Virus record (IMG/VR): IMGVR_UViG_3300036792_000277
Coordinates: 1 to 27,186 of that record
Length of the DNA stretch: 27,186 nucleotides
Source of the DNA: a virus
Direction: 5' to 3' (one strand)
The position numbers and the translations under genes were made by a program. Under the pieces are notes generated by a model, which saw nothing but the letters and a program-made list of their open reading frames with translations, did not search any database and was not told the origin of the DNA. Shown here in pieces: positions 4,216 to 11,714 of the stretch. The stretch's first letter is position 1. Each line of letters opens with the position of its first letter.

Positions 4216-5502
4216 TTAGCGAAGATTTCCGTAGCAGTTTGTGCCGTCGTAAATGAAGGCGAGGATGTTGATAGCCGATGCAGTGGTGTTCAGAGCGAGA
4301 GTGGTGAGCGAAGTGAAGCCGGTCGACCCGCCCTGCTTCCACGTGCAACCGGTTCCGAGTGTCGCCGTCGCCCCGCCCGTTGAGTCTTGTTTGAAGACGA
4401 GGACGTAGCTTCCACCGTTGACCAGACCGGTTAGGTTGATCGAGCGCGTAGAAGTCGTATGGACCAACGTCACGGTCGAATTTGAGATGAGCGCGGATGC
4501 AATTGCCCAGGTCACCGAAGCTCCGTCGGTCAAGGTGCTGAACGAAGGACTCGCCGTTCCGATACCGCCCTGTGCTACTGGTAGCGGCGCTGCCAGGTGA
4601 GTCACCGTGACCTGGTTCGACGTATTAATGTCCGAGCCAGTTCGAGCAATGCTGGGGCCGCAGGTAACTGATACTGCACCGGCTGATGTAGTGCAGTCGC
4701 CAGTCAGAGCAGGCATCTGCGTCGCCGCGGCGCTGCCAGAGATGTCAGCGAACGTAGGTTGAGACGCTGTGAAGCCGCCGGTTGCGCTGTTGTATGAAGT
4801 GAAGAAGTTATGCGCTACGGCAGACAGAGTCGAGGCCAGTACGGTCGAGCTCGGCAGGTAGGCGTTCGCGTTGGTCGCCGCCGCCGTTCCGAATGATCCG
4901 CCCGCGTACGAAGTGAGAGACGACGAAGTGACATTCGGTGCGAGTGTTGTGCCGGAAAGCGTTCCAGCAGGAGCTACGACGGCGCTGGTTGACACCGCAG
5001 TTGCTCTTCCCTTCCCGTCGTACGTGACGACCGGAATGGCAGATGGCGAGCCAAAGGAACCGACGTTCGAGTTCACAGTCGCCAGCGTGGTTGCGCATAG
5101 TGAACTGGTGACGTCGCCAGTAAGGGAAGGAAGCTGTCCGCAGCCCGCCGATCCAGAGAGGTTGTTGAATGCCAGGCTGACGATACCCGTCTGACCATTG
5201 ACTGATTGGACTGGAGAGGCTGGCGTGAGAATCTGCTGCCAGTTCGCAAGCGTTGACGCCGGTGAGTTCTGAAGGATGTAAGTCGTATTGGTGTCCGACC
5301 GGATAGCCACGTCACCTATCGTCGCCGCCAGAGCCAGCATTGCTGACTGAGAGGTAACCACGAAGGTTTGATCGATGGCTATAGGTGGCAGTTGAGAAGA
5401 GGGCAGTAAGCCGCTGGAGTCCAGAGAGGCATAACCATTAGGCTGACCCTTTGCAGAGCTTGGCTGTGAAGCATTCGCAGTTGCCTGGGCCGCCAGCATC
5501 AA
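4216..5502 (-). CDS. Tail fibre, C-terminal part (frameshifted from upstream ORF)
   Basis: About 428 residues of repetitive fibre sequence rich in Ser, Thr, Ala and Gly. Repeated segments of the type [11 protein letters not shown] and [11 protein letters not shown], and [11 protein letters not shown], are characteristic of long phage tail fibres, and a C-terminal beta domain (about 330-428) ends [13 protein letters not shown]. The nominal TTG/ATG start at 5502/5499 has no Shine-Dalgarno. The first residues ([14 protein letters not shown]) continue the sequence expected after the TAFDA of the upstream collagen-like ORF. One extra G at 5493/5494 explains the break. I therefore read this as the distal part of one 750-aa fibre, separated by a natural mutation, a sequencing error or programmed slippage. 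Confidence 0.75.
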
Positions 5503-6475
5503 ACGCGGTGGACGGCTGAGTCGCAGCTGACCCTAGTCCCAGGTTGGACCGGGCAGAGGAGACGCTGGCGAGATCGCTCAGGTTGTTCGCTGTCTGTGCA
5601 GCTCCCACGATGCGAGGGTCATTGCCTTCTGCGGCAGTGTTTGCCGTCGAGCCATAGGTCACGGTGCCGTTGCCGCCGGAACCAGCCGGTCCCTGAGGAC
5701 CAGTGGCACCCGTCGCGCCCGTCAGACCGATGGGGCCTTGTGCTCCAGTCGCACCCGTCAGACCAATGGAACCTTGGGCACCCGTCGCACCTGTCGTTCC
5801 GGTTGCTCCTTGTGGTCCAGTCGCACCGGTGAGTCCGATCGGACCTTGAACACCTTGAGGTCCTGTGGCTCCGGTGTCACCTTTCGGTCCAGCAGGACCA
5901 ACAGGTCCGACGCCACCCGCACCCGTACCGGAACCCGTCACGAGGACAGGAACGCCGCCGACACACATATATAAGAGACCACCGTCTAGATTCTGAACAT
6001 AGAACGACGGACTCACACATGTGCTGGGAGGCGCGGCGGTACCGTACGACACCTGGATCGGTTCGACGTTGGTCGTCTGGGCAGGGGGAGCATACGCGTC
6101 AAGAGCCCACGTAGCGCCGGTGATGTTCGGCACCGCAGTGAGAGTGAACGCTCTCTGCGCGGCAGTATTCGTAATCTGGATCGAATAGAGAAGGTTCGGA
6201 GTATTCGTCAGAGCAGCGTCAGGAATCTGGCACGCGCCTGTGATTACGCCTGAAACGATCGTGCAGGAATAGGAGTCTGGAGAGTTCAGTCCGCCGCCGC
6301 CCTGCTCAAACGCAATCGGGATCCCAGCGAGATTCACGGGAGTGAACGTAACTGTGCCGGCGGCGATTGTCTTTCCACCCATTTTGATGGAGCTGGCGGT
6401 GATGGTGGTCAGCTGTGCATGAGCGGCGCCGAGCGCGCAGACGAGCGCGACGGCTACTTTGAGTAGTCGATTCAT
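5438..6475 (-). CDS. Collagen-like tail fibre protein with signal peptide, N-terminal part
   Basis: The 345-residue ORF starts with a Sec signal, [20 protein letters not shown], cleaved after A-H-A. A beta-sandwich-like domain follows (about 21-180, starting [17 protein letters not shown]) with Cys residues at 71, 82, 153 and 171. Residues 188-267 are collagen-like Gly-X-Y repeats ([17 protein letters not shown]). Residues 270-326 ([25 protein letters not shown]) are a classic fibre stem that normally runs on as FDAAxxA. Here the frame changes after FDA, and the last 19 residues (with Cys-Glu-Cys) are probably nonsense. AGGAG lies 4 nt before the ATG. Collagen-like stems form trimers, so a trimeric host-binding fibre is inferred. 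The signal peptide is atypical for a phage fibre. Confidence 0.8.
5675..5914 (-). repeat. Collagen-type Gly-X-Y coding repeat
   Basis: About 27 Gly-X-Y triplets are encoded here, with near-repeated DNA units coding for [10 protein letters not shown]-like peptides. The DNA similarity between units makes the array prone to slippage or recombination and hence to length variation of the fibre. Confidence 0.85.
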
Positions 6476-6500: not shown

Positions 6501-7037
6501 TTAGAGGGAAAGCTTGGGAGATGTGGTCTTATGACGATGAGGGACTTGATGCAATAGAGCCATCTCAGCTCGCTCGTGCATCCTCGTCTGTAGCAGAGCG
6601 CTGAAGGCCGGAAGGTCGGTCGTCATCAGAGCGGTCTCGTCGTGGTTGAACGACGACATCACGTGGATGTCAGGTACACGCTTGTAGCTGCCCATCAGCT
6701 CCTTGCGGGTCAACGTGGCTTTCCACGCCTGAAACCCTTCCTCAGTGATTTCGCCGCTCTTACGCATCTCTGGATAGTGAAAGGTCGCATCCGTGCAGAG
6801 CTTGGCGTGAACTTCGGCGATGCGGTTACCGGGCTTCAGCGTGGTGGGGCCACCGCAAACGGGGCATATCACCTCACCATCTTCATCCTGTAATCCGGCT
6901 TGCTCAGCCATGTCCGGATTGATTGCACCGGGGCAAAACTGCTGATGGCAGTGGTGAAGATCAGGGTGCTGATGGAGGTTGCAGCGAGGGGAGTGAAAGC
7001 AGTAGTGCTTATGAGAATTAAGTAGTCGCTGGGGCAT
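6501..7037 (-). CDS. Cys/His-rich hypothetical protein, putative zinc binding
   Basis: This 178-aa protein starts [10 protein letters not shown]. Residues 9-36 contain ten Cys or His ([25 protein letters not shown]). A CPVCGG motif with a later Cys (AKLCTD) follows at about 58-81. The rest is helical and charged, with [12 protein letters not shown] and a C-terminal helix. AGGA is about 10 nt before the ATG, which overlaps the end of the preceding gene by 20 bp. I do not recognise the family. It sits inside the tail-fibre cassette between small tail-associated proteins and the collagen-like fibre, so a metal-stabilised virion or assembly role is possible. The start could be later, for example the Met of MAEQAGL, if the His/Cys-rich part is not translated. 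Confidence 0.55.
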
Positions 7038-7281
7038 TGGTCGAGGTTCCTGTGGTTGTCGCCGGCTTCTTTACAACGGTTTTGGTAGCTGCGTCATAGG
7101 TGAAGTTCTGAATCCCTTCAGCGATGAGGGTGTCGTACGTAGCAGCATCAATCCCAACCGGATCGGCTAGGATTAGGTTCGGAAAGGACACTATGTTTAC
7201 GAGAGGAACGATGGTAAGTCCTGGGTTAGCACAAACGTGACAAATGTTTTCAGCGTTATCGTGCTCGAGAAAATAGATCAT
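7018..7281 (-). CDS. Small hypothetical protein of the fibre cassette
   Basis: The 87-aa protein starts MIYFLEHDNAENICHVC. I chose the ATG at 7281 over the one at 7302 because it overlaps the stop of the upstream gene as TAATG and has AGGTGG 5 nt upstream. A CxxC (ICHVC) near the N-terminus is followed by hydrophobic segments (GLTIVPLVNIVSFPNLIL) and a region resembling a small peptide-binding or cap motif (DAATYDTLIAEGIQNF). The C-terminus is a low-complexity Thr/Ala tail. Function unknown; the position suggests a tail accessory protein. Confidence 0.65.
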   Translation of the reverse strand: MIYFLEHDNAENICHVCANPGLTIVPLVNIVSFPNLILADPVGIDAATYDTLIAEGIQNFTYDAATKTVVKKPATTTGTSTNAPATT

Positions 7282-7778
7282 TAAAGCCACCTGTATACGC
7301 ATGGAGCGAAATCAAGACCACCGTCGTGATACTGGGAGTTGGGGTCGTTCACATATCCGTCTCCTTGGTTCTGGTTGAAGATTGTGAAGCTACCCGCAGC
7401 TGCGTTGAAGTTGTGAACAGTCTTACCGAAGATTGCTGTTGTGCTCTCGGTGCCTCCGCTAGTGGGATCACCGGGATTACGGAATTCCATGAAGTAATTC
7501 GCTGCCGGTTGAGTTGTGTCGACCTGTACCGTAGGAACTCTCCCAGAGATCGTTGTGATCGTGGCGCTGCTGGTTATCCCAACGTTGACGGAGCCGCTAA
7601 CAGGATTTGCTGAACACGAGTTGAGTCCGTGGACCACATGTCCGTTACTGTCAATGATTCCGTGACCCCCGACTGTTAGCAGGTTGATAGGAGTTCCATC
7701 CCCAAAAGTCGCATTCCCACTGTTGTCTATAGTGAGGATAAGAAGGTTCGCTGTTTCGTCTCTGATGATGATGGGCAT
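7281..7778 (-). CDS. Small tail accessory protein, paralogue 3
   Basis: This 165-aa protein starts MPIIIRDETANLLILTIDNSG. The first 25 residues match the two upstream genes (pattern RDETA..-IL..DNS-N..-G). The middle is beta-rich with many Ser, Thr and Val residues (SGSVNVGITSSATITTISGRVP), and the C-terminus has an insert compared with its paralogues and ends in aromatic residues (PCVYRWL). TAATG overlaps with both neighbours imply coupled translation. A structural role at the tail tip or fibre base is inferred from position and composition. Confidence 0.7.
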   Translation of the reverse strand: MPIIIRDETANLLILTIDNSGNATFGDGTPINLLTVGGHGIIDSNGHVVHGLNSCSANPVSGSVNVGITSSATITTISGRVPTVQVDTTQPAANYFMEFRNPGDPTSGGTESTTAIFGKTVHNFNAAAGSFTIFNQNQGDGYVNDPNSQYHDGGLDFAPCVYRWL

Positions 7779-8134
7779 TAAAACACCGAGTAGTTCAGGG
7801 TTTGTGTGGAGCTAGATTCATTCAGGAGGTCAAATGAGCTCTTGTCTGAGGCGAAACTAACCACGGTTCCAAATATGCTCACGCCGGCGAATCCCGCAGT
7901 CGTGGTGGTCGAAACCGTAGCCTGGGCAAAGGCAGCCAAAGTTACAGCCCCCGATATCCGTGCCATGCTCGGAGGAGCGGCTGTCCGTTGGTCTAGTACT
8001 GACCCACTCAGGAGGTTCCTACCTTGGAAAGACAGCTTCGACGACGGGGTAGCACTACCTAGCTCGAAGTTGGACGAGTTGTCCGCCGCTAGACGCTGTG
8101 TTCCCGTTGTCGCGTCATTGAGTATGATGCTCAT
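7778..8134 (-). CDS. Small tail accessory protein, paralogue 2
   Basis: This 118-aa protein starts MSIILNDATTGTQRLAADNSS and ends NYSVF. It shares the N-terminal pattern (DAT..., DNS.N...G) and the C-terminal pattern (aromatic end after N-S-T-Q-T-L) with the genes on either side, in a beta-rich Ser/Thr/Ala background. The stop overlaps the start of the next gene as TAATG. I do not recognise a named family. It is likely a homo-oligomeric beta-structured tail component. Confidence 0.7.
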   Translation of the reverse strand: MSIILNDATTGTQRLAADNSSNFELGSATPSSKLSFQGRNLLSGSVLDQRTAAPPSMARISGAVTLAAFAQATVSTTTTAGFAGVSIFGTVVSFASDKSSFDLLNESSSTQTLNYSVF

Positions 8135-8142
8135 TTTGTTGT

Positions 8143-8496
8143 TTACCAGATGGAATACTGCATGGTGCGTGGTGAACCCGTAGCGTTAGAGAAGGTCACG
8201 CTTGAGCTAGATATTGCTACAGCCGGAGCATCAGCGCCGACGGTAGGAATATCGTTAACGACAATGGGGACGGTTGCTGTTGAGTTGGCGGGAATAGAAA
8301 TTGATCCTTCAACCGGAGCCGTTGCCCCAGGCCCTAAAACATCGCAGGCGAAGGTTCCGCCTATCGTTACCACACCCGAGCCTTGCACGGTGAGTTGTTG
8401 ACCAGCGATAGGCAAGCTCCCCAACCCCATCTGATTGGAGTTATCCACGTACAGGATGTTGACTCCGGCGGTCTCATCGCGCATTTGGAATGGCAT
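8143..8496 (-). CDS. Small tail accessory protein, paralogue 1
   Basis: This 117-aa protein starts MPFQMRDETAGVNILYVDNSN and ends MQYSIW. It is beta-rich with no membrane segment. The RDETA and DNS signature and the aromatic C-terminus mark it as a paralogue of the next two genes. It begins 2 bp after the stop of the J-like gene, so it is cotranscribed and probably coupled. The location directly after J suggests attachment to the tail tip; the exact function is unknown. Confidence 0.7.
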   Translation of the reverse strand: MPFQMRDETAGVNILYVDNSNQMGLGSLPIAGQQLTVQGSGVVTIGGTFACDVLGPGATAPVEGSISIPANSTATVPIVVNDIPTVGADAPAVAISSSSVTFSNATGSPRTMQYSIW

Positions 8497-8498
8497 GA

Positions 8499-11400
8499 TT
8501 ACACCGCCTGAATCGAGTACGAACGTGACCCGTTGTTGATGAACAGTTTGTATCCAGTTGGCACCACACTGGCAATGGTTGAAGCGGGAACTCCGTCAAC
8601 TGTGTTGGTGTCAGCCGAGGTATTTGACCCCGTGACGTCAGCTCCCCACTGGCCAGCCGCCGCATAAGGGATGCATGAGACAGAATGGCAGGCCAGGTCA
8701 GAGACTCCGACGGCATAGACAATCATCGAGGCGTAGTACACCCCGGCTGGACACGTCCAATCGTAGCTGTAGGGTGTCATCACGGTTGTGACGCTGCCAT
8801 TAGCCATGAGGTCCGTGAAGCCCTTTGTTGCCGACGTTCCGCCGTTAGGGTCTACGTTGGGAACATAGGTGCTTTGCCAAGCGATACGAAGGTAGATTCC
8901 GCCCGGTGGGTAACCCCCCATGTAGACGGTGTACGTGAGCCTGTACTTCTGACCCGGCACAACGCTAAACGTGGGCGAAATGGCACCATTACCATCTCCA
9001 TTACCAAATGGTAATGAGTAGAGGCGGTAGCCATTTGGGTCGGAGCCAAATGTGAACGCCGCATGCAGATCCCACCCTTGGGCGTTTCCGAGGATGAAGT
9101 TTCCGTTCGGAACAATCGACTCGCTGGCCCCGCTATAGACGATGGCTTGTGAGCCTGTGACGTCAGCAGCACCAGAGGTGTCCGTCAACGAGATCCCGTC
9201 GAACCATGCATTGGCGTTGGAATTTCCGCTCCCATAGTGGTCGGTGAGATTGACGGTATAAGCACCGCCAGTAGAAGCCGCGAACGTGAGCTGAATAAAT
9301 GTCCAACCAACGGCAGAGGCAGTTGCTACCACTACACCGGGGAAGGTGCCGTTCTGATTTAGAACTGTTCCGTTTCCCTTCTGGATCGTTATATTCCCGC
9401 TAGGATCAGAGACGTACAGTCCAGCACCCAGAGACCCACTACCAATAACCGAACCATCAGTCATCACCCATGCCTGAAACAGATACGTGTGACCACCGAC
9501 TAGATTGACTGTCTGGTTGAGACTTGCCCCTTGGCAGCGCACAGACTGCGTACCGAGGTAGTGCTGGGTGGTGTCGAGCGTTGGAGTCCCAGCGGCAATC
9601 GTCCAACCCGTCAGACCGTTGGCGAAGTTGCTGTTGACCAGCATCTCGCCCGGCACCGTACCGCCTAGTTGAGAGTTCGCTGTGATGGTCGGAATCTGCG
9701 CACCCAGCGTCCCAAGGAACGACGGCGTCGTGCTGACCGTGTAGCCGAGTTGCTGGACCCACTCAGATGAGACACCATTGGCGCGAGTCGTGCGGATTTG
9801 AACGTTGTAGGCCTGACCAGCGATCACACCGGAGACCAAGCCAACGTTGAGGCTGATGTCGATCGCAGGAGCGGACAACCACGTGCTCTCACCGACTAAC
9901 TGGTACTGCACCTGGATCTGCACGGCGAGATTATCCAGAGGCGTGTTGAACGTCACCTGGATAACCGATTCGAGCGAGCCGTCTGGCTGCACGATCGCAG
10001 TGTCAGGCCCGGACGTCAGCACCATGTTCGTCGGTGGTGCCGGGGTCAGTGGGGTCTGTGACGGCAGAGCCGGGACAGCATAGACGTTCTGCTCCTCGAT
10101 CGTGCTCCACTCGTAGATCGAGGAATCGGTCTCGTTGACGTTGAAGCTCGCGCGAATGCTCTGTGTACCGCTGTCCTGATCCTCAACGACGCTCAAACTT
10201 GCGCCGGATACCTCTAGAAGCTTGTTCGTCCAGTTCAGGGCCGGGAAGTTGAAGTCGAAAACGTTCTTCGGCTGCATTACATAAGCAGCTAGACTCATCT
10301 CCAGCGTTCCCATTCCCTGGAAGCGATTCCGCAGTAGGTGGATCTTCGCGACGCGCTGCCATTGCGCTACCGACAGTACGGACTGTAGTGACAGCTCTAG
10401 TGGATGCTGATGACCGCCGTCCGCTGCCAGCCACTCATCCGAAGGATAGCCGTGGAGTTCATCCTGGGCATACCGCGGCGCGTTAGTCGGTTGGAACGCA
10501 AAGGAGAAGTTGTCTTGCGCTTGGCCATTGTAAAAGCCGTTCGCGTCGTAGAGATTACCTGCGACGTTGTAAGGGAACGTCGGGGCGGTGTACGTGCCGT
10601 TCACACAGTTGATCAAGTCAGGCACACTGCGATACGGCTTCCACTGGAACGTGGATGTGAGGTGCTGTGGACCAAAGGTGAAGCTAGGACCCTGCCAGTA
10701 AGCGGGCCAGACATAGTGCTCTCCGCCGATCTGACTGTAGCTCCCAGCCGCGCCCGGCATGATGGTTGCGAGAGCATCGCCGGGCGAGACGCTGGTGTCA
10801 TAGTGATACGAGCAGGAGTAGCGAGCTTCGGTCTGTCCGGAGGCAAGTTCTACCTGTTCATCGCAGACATTCGCGGCGGCGATCAGGTTCAGCTGATTCA
10901 CTGCAAGTGTGTCGCCGAGGCCAAACTGCGTGTCGCTGATGATGTCGGCTGCGACTAAAGCCCAATTTGTAGTGAAACCGGTAGTCGATGTGCGAGGGTC
11001 CCAAATGTCGTTCTTGCCGTTGACGGTGATGCGTACCTCTGGCTCGCCCGGGAACAGTGATGGATTGTTCTCCACCTTCAAGTAGATATAGGTGCAACCA
11101 GCAACCCACGGATTATTACCGTGGATGTCGTAGTCCCAGGTGGGATCATTGGCTCTGAGTGAGCCCATGATCTGAGTAGCCGGGTTCTCGCCCTCGGTGT
11201 GGTCGCCGAATCGAGCTTCGCAGTAAACCGCGCCTCCGAAGTTGTACTGAACACCATTAGGTCCGGTATAGCTGTTGCCGTTGGCAGCGCCGCCGAAGTT
11301 GATGCCATTGCGCGTGACGTTGCCGACACCACCAGCCCAGTGAACCTGACGACCGTCGAGGTAGATATTGACGAGGGAGTCGCAAACGTGACCGGCGATG

Positions 11401-11714
11401 ACGATGACGTAGTTGAGCTGATCTCGATGGGAACCAGTGGTCGACTTGAAGATAATTACCCCACCGACGCGCTGCTGGCCGTAGATGATCTGCCGGTTGG
11501 CAGCCGCCTGACGCGTGGTAATGTTCATCCCACGGTTGGAGGTCAGGGCGCTGGCGATAGCTCCAGCTTCCATGCTGACGCCCATCATGCCGAGGGCGAA
11601 CATCGCTTTCTGGAAGGCTGGGTTGACAGTCAGCGCGGGGTCAAACATGGCGGTCAGGACTTCTGCCCCGATTACACCTGCAATTAACGCTGCGCCTTCA
11701 ATTGCTTTCGACAT
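8499..11714 (-). CDS. Host-specificity (tail tip, J-like) protein
   Basis: This 1071-residue protein starts MSKAIEGAALIAGVIGAEVL. The N-terminal third carries the hub pattern of J-like proteins (RQIIYGQQRVGG, NYVIVIAGHVCDSLVNIYLDG). A tail hub domain runs to about 550. A fibronectin type III-like domain spans about 555-660. Two modules resembling carbohydrate-binding jelly rolls follow at about 686-850 (NSNFANGLTGWTIAAGTP) and 865-1005 (NGNFILGNAQGWDL). J proteins form the tail tip and bind the receptor; the modules suggest a surface glycan. The start overlaps the upstream stop as TAATG. It follows M/L and K-like genes as in lambda, except that no I-like gene is seen. Confidence 0.85.
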   Translation of the reverse strand: MSKAIEGAALIAGVIGAEVLTAMFDPALTVNPAFQKAMFALGMMGVSMEAGAIASALTSNRGMNITTRQAAANRQIIYGQQRVGGVIIFKSTTGSHRDQLNYVIVIAGHVCDSLVNIYLDGRQVHWAGGVGNVTRNGINFGGAANGNSYTGPNGVQYNFGGAVYCEARFGDHTEGENPATQIMGSLRANDPTWDYDIHGNNPWVAGCTYIYLKVENNPSLFPGEPEVRITVNGKNDIWDPRTSTTGFTTNWALVAADIISDTQFGLGDTLAVNQLNLIAAANVCDEQVELASGQTEARYSCSYHYDTSVSPGDALATIMPGAAGSYSQIGGEHYVWPAYWQGPSFTFGPQHLTSTFQWKPYRSVPDLINCVNGTYTAPTFPYNVAGNLYDANGFYNGQAQDNFSFAFQPTNAPRYAQDELHGYPSDEWLAADGGHQHPLELSLQSVLSVAQWQRVAKIHLLRNRFQGMGTLEMSLAAYVMQPKNVFDFNFPALNWTNKLLEVSGASLSVVEDQDSGTQSIRASFNVNETDSSIYEWSTIEEQNVYAVPALPSQTPLTPAPPTNMVLTSGPDTAIVQPDGSLESVIQVTFNTPLDNLAVQIQVQYQLVGESTWLSAPAIDISLNVGLVSGVIAGQAYNVQIRTTRANGVSSEWVQQLGYTVSTTPSFLGTLGAQIPTITANSQLGGTVPGEMLVNSNFANGLTGWTIAAGTPTLDTTQHYLGTQSVRCQGASLNQTVNLVGGHTYLFQAWVMTDGSVIGSGSLGAGLYVSDPSGNITIQKGNGTVLNQNGTFPGVVVATASAVGWTFIQLTFAASTGGAYTVNLTDHYGSGNSNANAWFDGISLTDTSGAADVTGSQAIVYSGASESIVPNGNFILGNAQGWDLHAAFTFGSDPNGYRLYSLPFGNGDGNGAISPTFSVVPGQKYRLTYTVYMGGYPPGGIYLRIAWQSTYVPNVDPNGGTSATKGFTDLMANGSVTTVMTPYSYDWTCPAGVYYASMIVYAVGVSDLACHSVSCIPYAAAGQWGADVTGSNTSADTNTVDGVPASTIASVVPTGYKLFINNGSRSYSIQAV

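Follow-up and report, generated by a model that had tools for sequence, protein, structure and literature searches.

The three small consecutive genes that follow the tail-tip protein gene in a 27,186-base IMG/VR virus record (IMGVR_UViG_3300036792_000277, positions 1 to 27,186; hereafter the window) are, by their sequences, homologous copies of an old duplication. These genes are here called A, B and C. The explanation towards which we lean, with modest confidence, is that they encode mini-fibre subunits. Each would consist of one N-terminal fibre-shaft repeat, of the kind that builds intertwined trimeric β-prisms, followed by a variable β-rich tip. Together the three would form one exchangeable receptor-binding tip, which would dock at the C-terminal end of the preceding tail-tip protein (J in the window, gp16 in the isolated phage Tunturi_4), probably via its conserved last ~52 residues. 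We infer trimerisation, docking on this C-terminal module and presence in the virion from these data, and the putative receptor binding from family resemblance, genome position and evolutionary pattern. The features of the locus are as follows.

8499..11714, minus strand: J-like tail-tip protein of 1071 aa; residues 690-771 are a CBM_4_9 domain
8502..8657, minus strand: C-terminal module of the J-like protein, its last 52 residues, conserved, AGQWGADVTGSNT...GYKLFINNGSRSYSIQAV; possible dock
8143..8496, minus strand: gene A, 117 aa; shaft-like N-terminal unit at about residues 1-40, then a β-rich C-terminal part; end YSIW
7778..8134, minus strand: gene B, 118 aa; layout as in A; end YSVF
7281..7778, minus strand: gene C, 165 aa; N-terminal unit as in A and B, then a longer variable C-terminal part; end YRWL
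7018..7281, minus strand: gene D, ~87 aa when counted from the ATG at 7281; start at 7302 according to the ORF finder
6501..7037, minus strand: gene E, 178 aa, Cys/His-rich
5438..6475: gene F, collagen-like, downstream of E

The upstream protein has PHROGs matches to phrog_5616 'tail fiber protein' (6.7e-47) and phrog_31 'central tail fiber J' (1.9e-22), and a Pfam match to PF02018 (1.1e-6). Its CBM_4_9 carbohydrate-binding domain sits in the least conserved stretch of the protein. Seven of the ten other window proteins scanned also have PHROGs matches, all on the minus strand, these being a terminase, a portal, a head protease, a major head protein, two connectors and a tail/distal tail protein. 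Gene D gave no match in the Pfam search, and gene E, which is conserved across arrays, gave weak zinc-ribbon matches in some relatives. By eye, F has a signal-peptide-like N-terminus, unusual for phage fibres, and the same is seen for F in seven related loci (L004, L005, L006, L034, L064, L065 and L066), several loci showing it also in the next gene; in the window the genes concerned are at 6475-5438 and 4206-3415. Window F is broken into two overlapping frames (345 and 428 aa) at 5438-5502, and is one long frame in L004, L005, L006 and L034.

The initial annotation had proposed three tandem paralogs at 7281-8496, and all three open reading frames are indeed found there on the minus strand. 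It had also described them as linked by TAATG overlaps or a short gap. Between them there is one junction of each kind, a gap of 8 nt from A to B and a TAATG overlap of the B stop with the C start; in addition, J and A are separated by 2 nt, and C and D share a second TAATG overlap. BLASTP of single pairs gave 2e-7 for A-B, 2e-11 for A-C and 1e-7 for B-C, and hhalign of ortholog profiles gave 1.1e-10, 1.7e-15 and 8.6e-14, respectively. Lack of significant profile similarity had been named beforehand as one result that would refute the claim; the similarity is significant for every pair. Chance similarity is thus ruled out by both methods, and since the same gene order is found in 11 other loci, the triplet as such is not a chance arrangement either.

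The proposed RDETA...DNS signature needs rewording: RDETA occurs literally in window A and C, whereas B has NDATTG, and what the three actually share is D-x-T...DN...G...P...L...G, or, written more fully over the N-terminal ~45 residues, D-x-T...L.(I/V)DN.G....G..(T)P...L...G. Over 22 aligned rows the invariant columns are M1, D7, G64 and Y114 (A numbering). The aromatic C-terminus, also noted at the outset, is a property of A, which ends Y-x-x-W in 12/12 loci, and of C, which ends YRW(L/I/M/F) in 12/12 loci, with two further C copies (L037 and L038) ending YIYM; it is not universal, however, as B ends Y-x-x-F in 9/12 loci and Y-x-x-(M/L/I) in the other 3.

In a tree of 40 rows (12 A, 13 B and 15 C), A, B and C each occupy one side of a branch, with support of 98/95, 97/99 and 98/96; when the first 48 residues alone are used, C is weakly supported (77/17). 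Because each copy forms its own clade, the duplications appear to predate the divergence of these phages. A recent or variable duplication is rejected, since each copy has its own clade across phages and none of the complete arrays, as counted on locus stretches (whole records or genomes for the window, L004, L005, L006 and L034 only), has two copies or four. A comparison of copy number among relatives had been suggested at the outset: the 12 complete arrays all have three copies, and the number is therefore constant among the relatives found.

The complete arrays are those of the window, L004, L005, L006, L034, L061, L064, L065, L066, L068, L069 and L086. By profile search all 12 contain one module followed by single copies of A, B, C, D and E in this order; in L066 gene E is split over two frames. 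Viral-contig scans with A and with the B and C alignments gave two relatives only (L004 and L005), while those with the J protein and with a single C gave none. A scan of genome contigs gave one, a contig of an Edaphobacter sp. metagenome-assembled genome (MAG). Among 398 genomes of the family of this MAG there were six matches, four with A/B/C genes and two with a repeat motif only, and among 396 genomes at phylum level there were 12, these being G001 and G022 again and ten weak matches. A search of a phage collection found Tunturi_4 by A and by C, not by window B, and the remaining arrays came from scans with the module and with E. There are also partial cases: L035 has A, then B and C in one frame; L036 has C alone; and L037 and L038 are two ends of one contig, with A cut by the contig end. 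On this 149-kb contig the two ends hold near-copies of B-C-D-E in opposite orientation, as would be seen with two prophages or an assembly break.

Relatives of J are present in Roseobacter, Microcystis and Pelagibacter phages (the three records examined out of 239), in which no A-B-C triplet is annotated after J, and six-frame profile searches of these three J loci gave no A/B/C match at 1e-3. Among the papers listed on tandem tail-tip paralogs, heterotrimeric tips and Acidobacteria prophages we found none that describes the triplet, the related cases being the precedents cited below.

The array is present in a cultured phage. In Tunturiibacter phage Tunturi_4 (PP885687.1) the orthologs of A-E are gp17-gp21, in the same order and all five annotated as 'hypothetical protein'. 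Tunturi_4 is described as a siphovirus with a prolate head, a genome of 88 kb and a tail of ~204 nm, which also plated on a Granulicella strain (PMC11924767). Judged by these terms, the main text of that paper reports no virion proteomics: neither 'mass spectrometry' nor 'structural protein' appears in it, and 'proteom' appears a single time, for work still to come. The preceding protein, gp16, ends in the same C-terminal module as window J; it matches window J in this module and in short repeats only, and shares a further ~186 residues (39%) with the J protein of L064.

Over residues 3-52 the module matches the end of gp16 at 72% (61.5% when 65 columns are taken), and with the five J proteins the gp16 end gives matches of 56-72% over 50-70 columns. 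The upstream protein of L068 matches window J only from its residue 1004 onward. The upstream proteins are thus mosaics, with different N-terminal parts and a shared extreme C-terminus. A scan anchored on the module, which is the unbiased count, gave 15 viral contigs. Eight have a near-full module, and in seven of these A-B-C follows; the other seven contigs (of which L075 and L076 may be near-copies) match residues 5-35 only and have no A, B or C match. In the latter, L070-L076, the viral proteins carry just the first module part, a GADVT..NT repeat. The one near-full-module viral contig lacking A-B-C is L067, which at 5001-5800 has a J-like gene with the full module, followed by packaging-type genes, and looks rearranged.

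Among the 398 family genomes the module is full in two, both with A-B-C, and partial in one. It has no match in G022 and G331, two of the four genomes with A/B/C genes; the G022 contig ends inside A, and no J-like frame was seen in ~860 bases upstream in G331. From the other side, the scan with E found A-B-C in 8/8 viral contigs. Once loci found via A, C or E are added, 12/13 full-module loci have A-B-C, a count to which these additions contribute by construction. From its genome position, the module is a possible dock for the A/B/C tip. A dock in which module and A co-evolve was also considered and is unsupported by their distances, which do not correlate (r = -0.13).

The N-terminal unit of A, B and C resembles one fibre-shaft repeat of trimeric adhesive fibres, as judged from profiles and motifs. 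Nine of the ten weak matches outside the arrays in the 396 phylum genomes are fibre repeats of the type GNVGIGTxxPxxxLxVxG, in frames of 445-2020 residues, and the tenth (L052) is not a repeat. Both weak matches in the 398 family genomes are also repeats, of the form G(N)(V)G(I)GT..P...L.V. The best weak outside match (L045, 1.0e-5) reads FYLQDETAGQYRLVVAANGNVGIGTTNPTQRLSVEG, which from DETAG onward runs parallel to the beginning of A, B and C, and one outside repeat reads QDETAG...NGNVGIGTTNPTQRLSVEG. Large open frames with fibre repeats of the GNVGIGT type were noted in genomes of the Acidobacteriota phylum at L045-L054, L023, L024, L039 and L040.

Database searches point in the same direction for B. 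The B family profile reached the Bdellovibrio fibre Bd2133 (PDB 8ond) at 7.9e-5, or 1.0e-4 with 13 rows, and a mixed profile reached it at 0.0011 (best single domain 0.061), with a second Bdellovibrio fibre entry at 0.036. The A-only and C-only profiles reached no fibre structure in the PDB, and for A and C no informative family emerged from Pfam, PHROGs or the PDB. Window A, B and C have no significant match in Pfam or PHROGs; no Pfam family, the C-terminal S74 chaperone domain of related trimeric fibres included, is above its cut-off in these three or in any A row or C row; and the PHROGs rows for B are weak, the best being 'tail fiber protein' at 0.0098.

A model built from 23 GNVGIGT-type repeats was also used to score the families. 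Twelve of 40 A/B/C proteins (3 A, 4 B and 5 C) beat the best of 8000 shuffles (11.8 bits), the top score being 28.1, and none of 20 D/E proteins did so; an earlier model of 12 repeats placed 13/40 A/B/C proteins above the shuffles. This control is not fully independent, because it was the family profile itself that had led to some of the repeat loci. Window A, B and C do not beat the shuffles in either model (with 23 repeats, B scores 7.8, A scores 3.7 and C is unreported), so the resemblance for the window itself rests on the families. It is worth adding that A departs from the spacing of the repeat, having GSLP with two extra residues after it.

AlphaFold monomer models were weak overall (pLDDT 63.6 for A and 44.8 for C), with the first ~25 residues better. 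Three strands are predicted in common in this part of the A and C models, which are not independent of each other because both used the same 12 sequences. The initial annotation had suggested comparing predicted folds, and A and C agree in their predicted N-terminal strands. Searched with the A model, neither the PDB nor BFVD yielded a Foldseek match at E <= 0.001, and VIA with this same weak model gave three rows at Z 2.2-3.7, too weak to use, the best (3.7) being the R2 pyocin fibre.

The divergence of the three proteins, which had been placed in their middle parts, is concentrated in their C-terminal parts, and modular exchange is supported. In 12/12 ortholog comparisons of the window with four relatives, conservation is higher in residues 1-45 than from residue 46 on, and in the same comparisons dN/dS is below 1 wherever it can be computed, that is, where dS is unsaturated. 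Between the window and L006, dS is 0.19-0.57 in A-E compared to 1.8 in J, the shift lying close to where J ends. Because dS is so much lower in A-E, this block has been exchanged separately from most of J.

The pairwise distances of A, B and C also vary together. Over ten loci, with the near-copies L006 and L066 left out, the distance correlations are 0.53 for A-B (0/5000 permutations), 0.55 for A-C (6/5000) and 0.78 for B-C (1/5000), and they hold in leave-one-out; without the L064/L068/L086 subtype they are 0.62, 0.52 and 0.50 (88-121 of 5000). Over the same ten loci, A, B and C against the module give -0.13 to 0.16, and against D give -0.11 to 0.11, while the correlation of C with E is weak (0.43; 83/5000). 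Linkage alone fails to explain this co-variation, because in the window only 2 nt lie between the module and A, and the C and D frames overlap. The pattern suggests that A, B and C have to match each other, bearing in mind that ten loci are few and that D and the module are short.

Two arrangements of the three chains can be considered. Tentatively, and with the co-variation as a suggestive sign, A, B and C could form an obligate 1:1:1 heterotrimer in which each contributes one strand set to a shared β-prism. A threefold tip would then carry three different receptor-binding heads at once, and the cassette, with its standard dock, would be passed as a unit from one tail-tip protein to another unlike it. 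A rival to the single tip, less likely than it, is that each forms a separate homotrimer, giving three tips or side fibres per tail, or alternative tips. Such an arrangement has in its favour that the solved fibres with this repeat are symmetric single-chain trimers (PMC10769870), and that alternative tips are the model which an in silico study put forward for the small proteins encoded after central tail spikes (PMC12309495). However, independent or alternative tips do not predict that exactly three copies are kept in every complete array, nor that all three co-vary.

Other explanations would take A, B and C away from the tip altogether. A small gene next to a fibre gene often encodes a chaperone, and the three might accordingly help J or the collagen-like F to assemble, as chaperones or as transient caps, and not be permanent parts of the virion. 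A fibre and its chaperone are common to distantly related phages in one published case (PMC10579305). This role is nevertheless improbable here, in that three paralogs with shaft-like N-termini and fast-evolving C-terminal parts look like fibres, no chaperone family was matched in Pfam (window A, B and C, A rows and C rows) or in PHROGs, and it is D that could fill the role, but without a Pfam match. Small β-rich proteins often decorate virions, and the suggestion at the outset had been a receptor-binding or decoration layer. Of these two, decoration of the tail tube or head seems very improbable, and a tip is favoured over a decoration layer, since the array comes after the conserved C-terminal module of the tail-tip protein, even where the N-terminal part of the upstream protein differs. 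Finally, a gene of the lom kind adjoins J in phage lambda, and signal-peptide-like starts are seen by eye in genes further downstream in the window, which would fit genes for lysogenic conversion or host modification that are not virion parts. By eye there is no such stretch at the starts of A, B or C, and the array is present in the plaque-forming isolate Tunturi_4; we therefore hold this to be most improbable.

The array amounts to a well-delimited cassette of five genes, with a recurring C-terminal connector and, in Tunturi_4, a cultured representative. In the Acidobacteriota phage isolates described in PMC11924767, 58-73% of open reading frames lack a predicted function, and those of this cassette are among them. 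For annotation, the rule would be to look for a small triplet right after a tail-tip protein ending in the ~52-residue module. If A, B and C co-assemble, the result would be a threefold tip with three different heads, which bears on host range and on the exchange of recognition modules among phages.

Several known systems offer parallels. The mosaic adhesive trimer (MAT) fibres of Bdellovibrio are trimers with exchangeable tips (PMC10769870). In MAT fibres such as Bd2133 (8ond) the shaft repeat has G-x-x-x-P-x-x-x-L, part of the capping-loop consensus, which is also found in B and C, and an exchangeable β-rich tip follows the shaft (PMC10769870), a layout that A, B and C would share. MATs are however long, with a signal peptide and an N-terminal β domain of ~130 aa (PMC10769870), whereas A, B and C are phage genes with one repeat each, encode 117-165 aa in the window, and start directly with the repeat, with no signal peptide evident by eye. 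A host-recognition cassette common to distantly related phages, as here, is described for Alteromonas phages; it consists of a tail fibre and its chaperone, and that description mentions no paralog triplet (PMC10579305). In Dhillonvirus, Traversvirus and Littlefixvirus, small unannotated proteins right after the tail-tip gene have been proposed, in silico, to be receptor-binding tips, these being by description one Ig-like and one hand-like protein as opposed to three paralogs (PMC12309495). In the virophage DSLV2, three consecutive small fibre-like tail proteins are kept together in the lineage and are reported to form a 1:1:1 heterotrimer that binds LPS, the fibre being compared in that paper with the T4 gp37 tip (PMC12724248). 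A, B and C are like these proteins, as described, in being three, consecutive and retained together (in 12/12 complete arrays), and the DSLV2 triplet is a published precedent for reading A, B and C as a heterotrimer.
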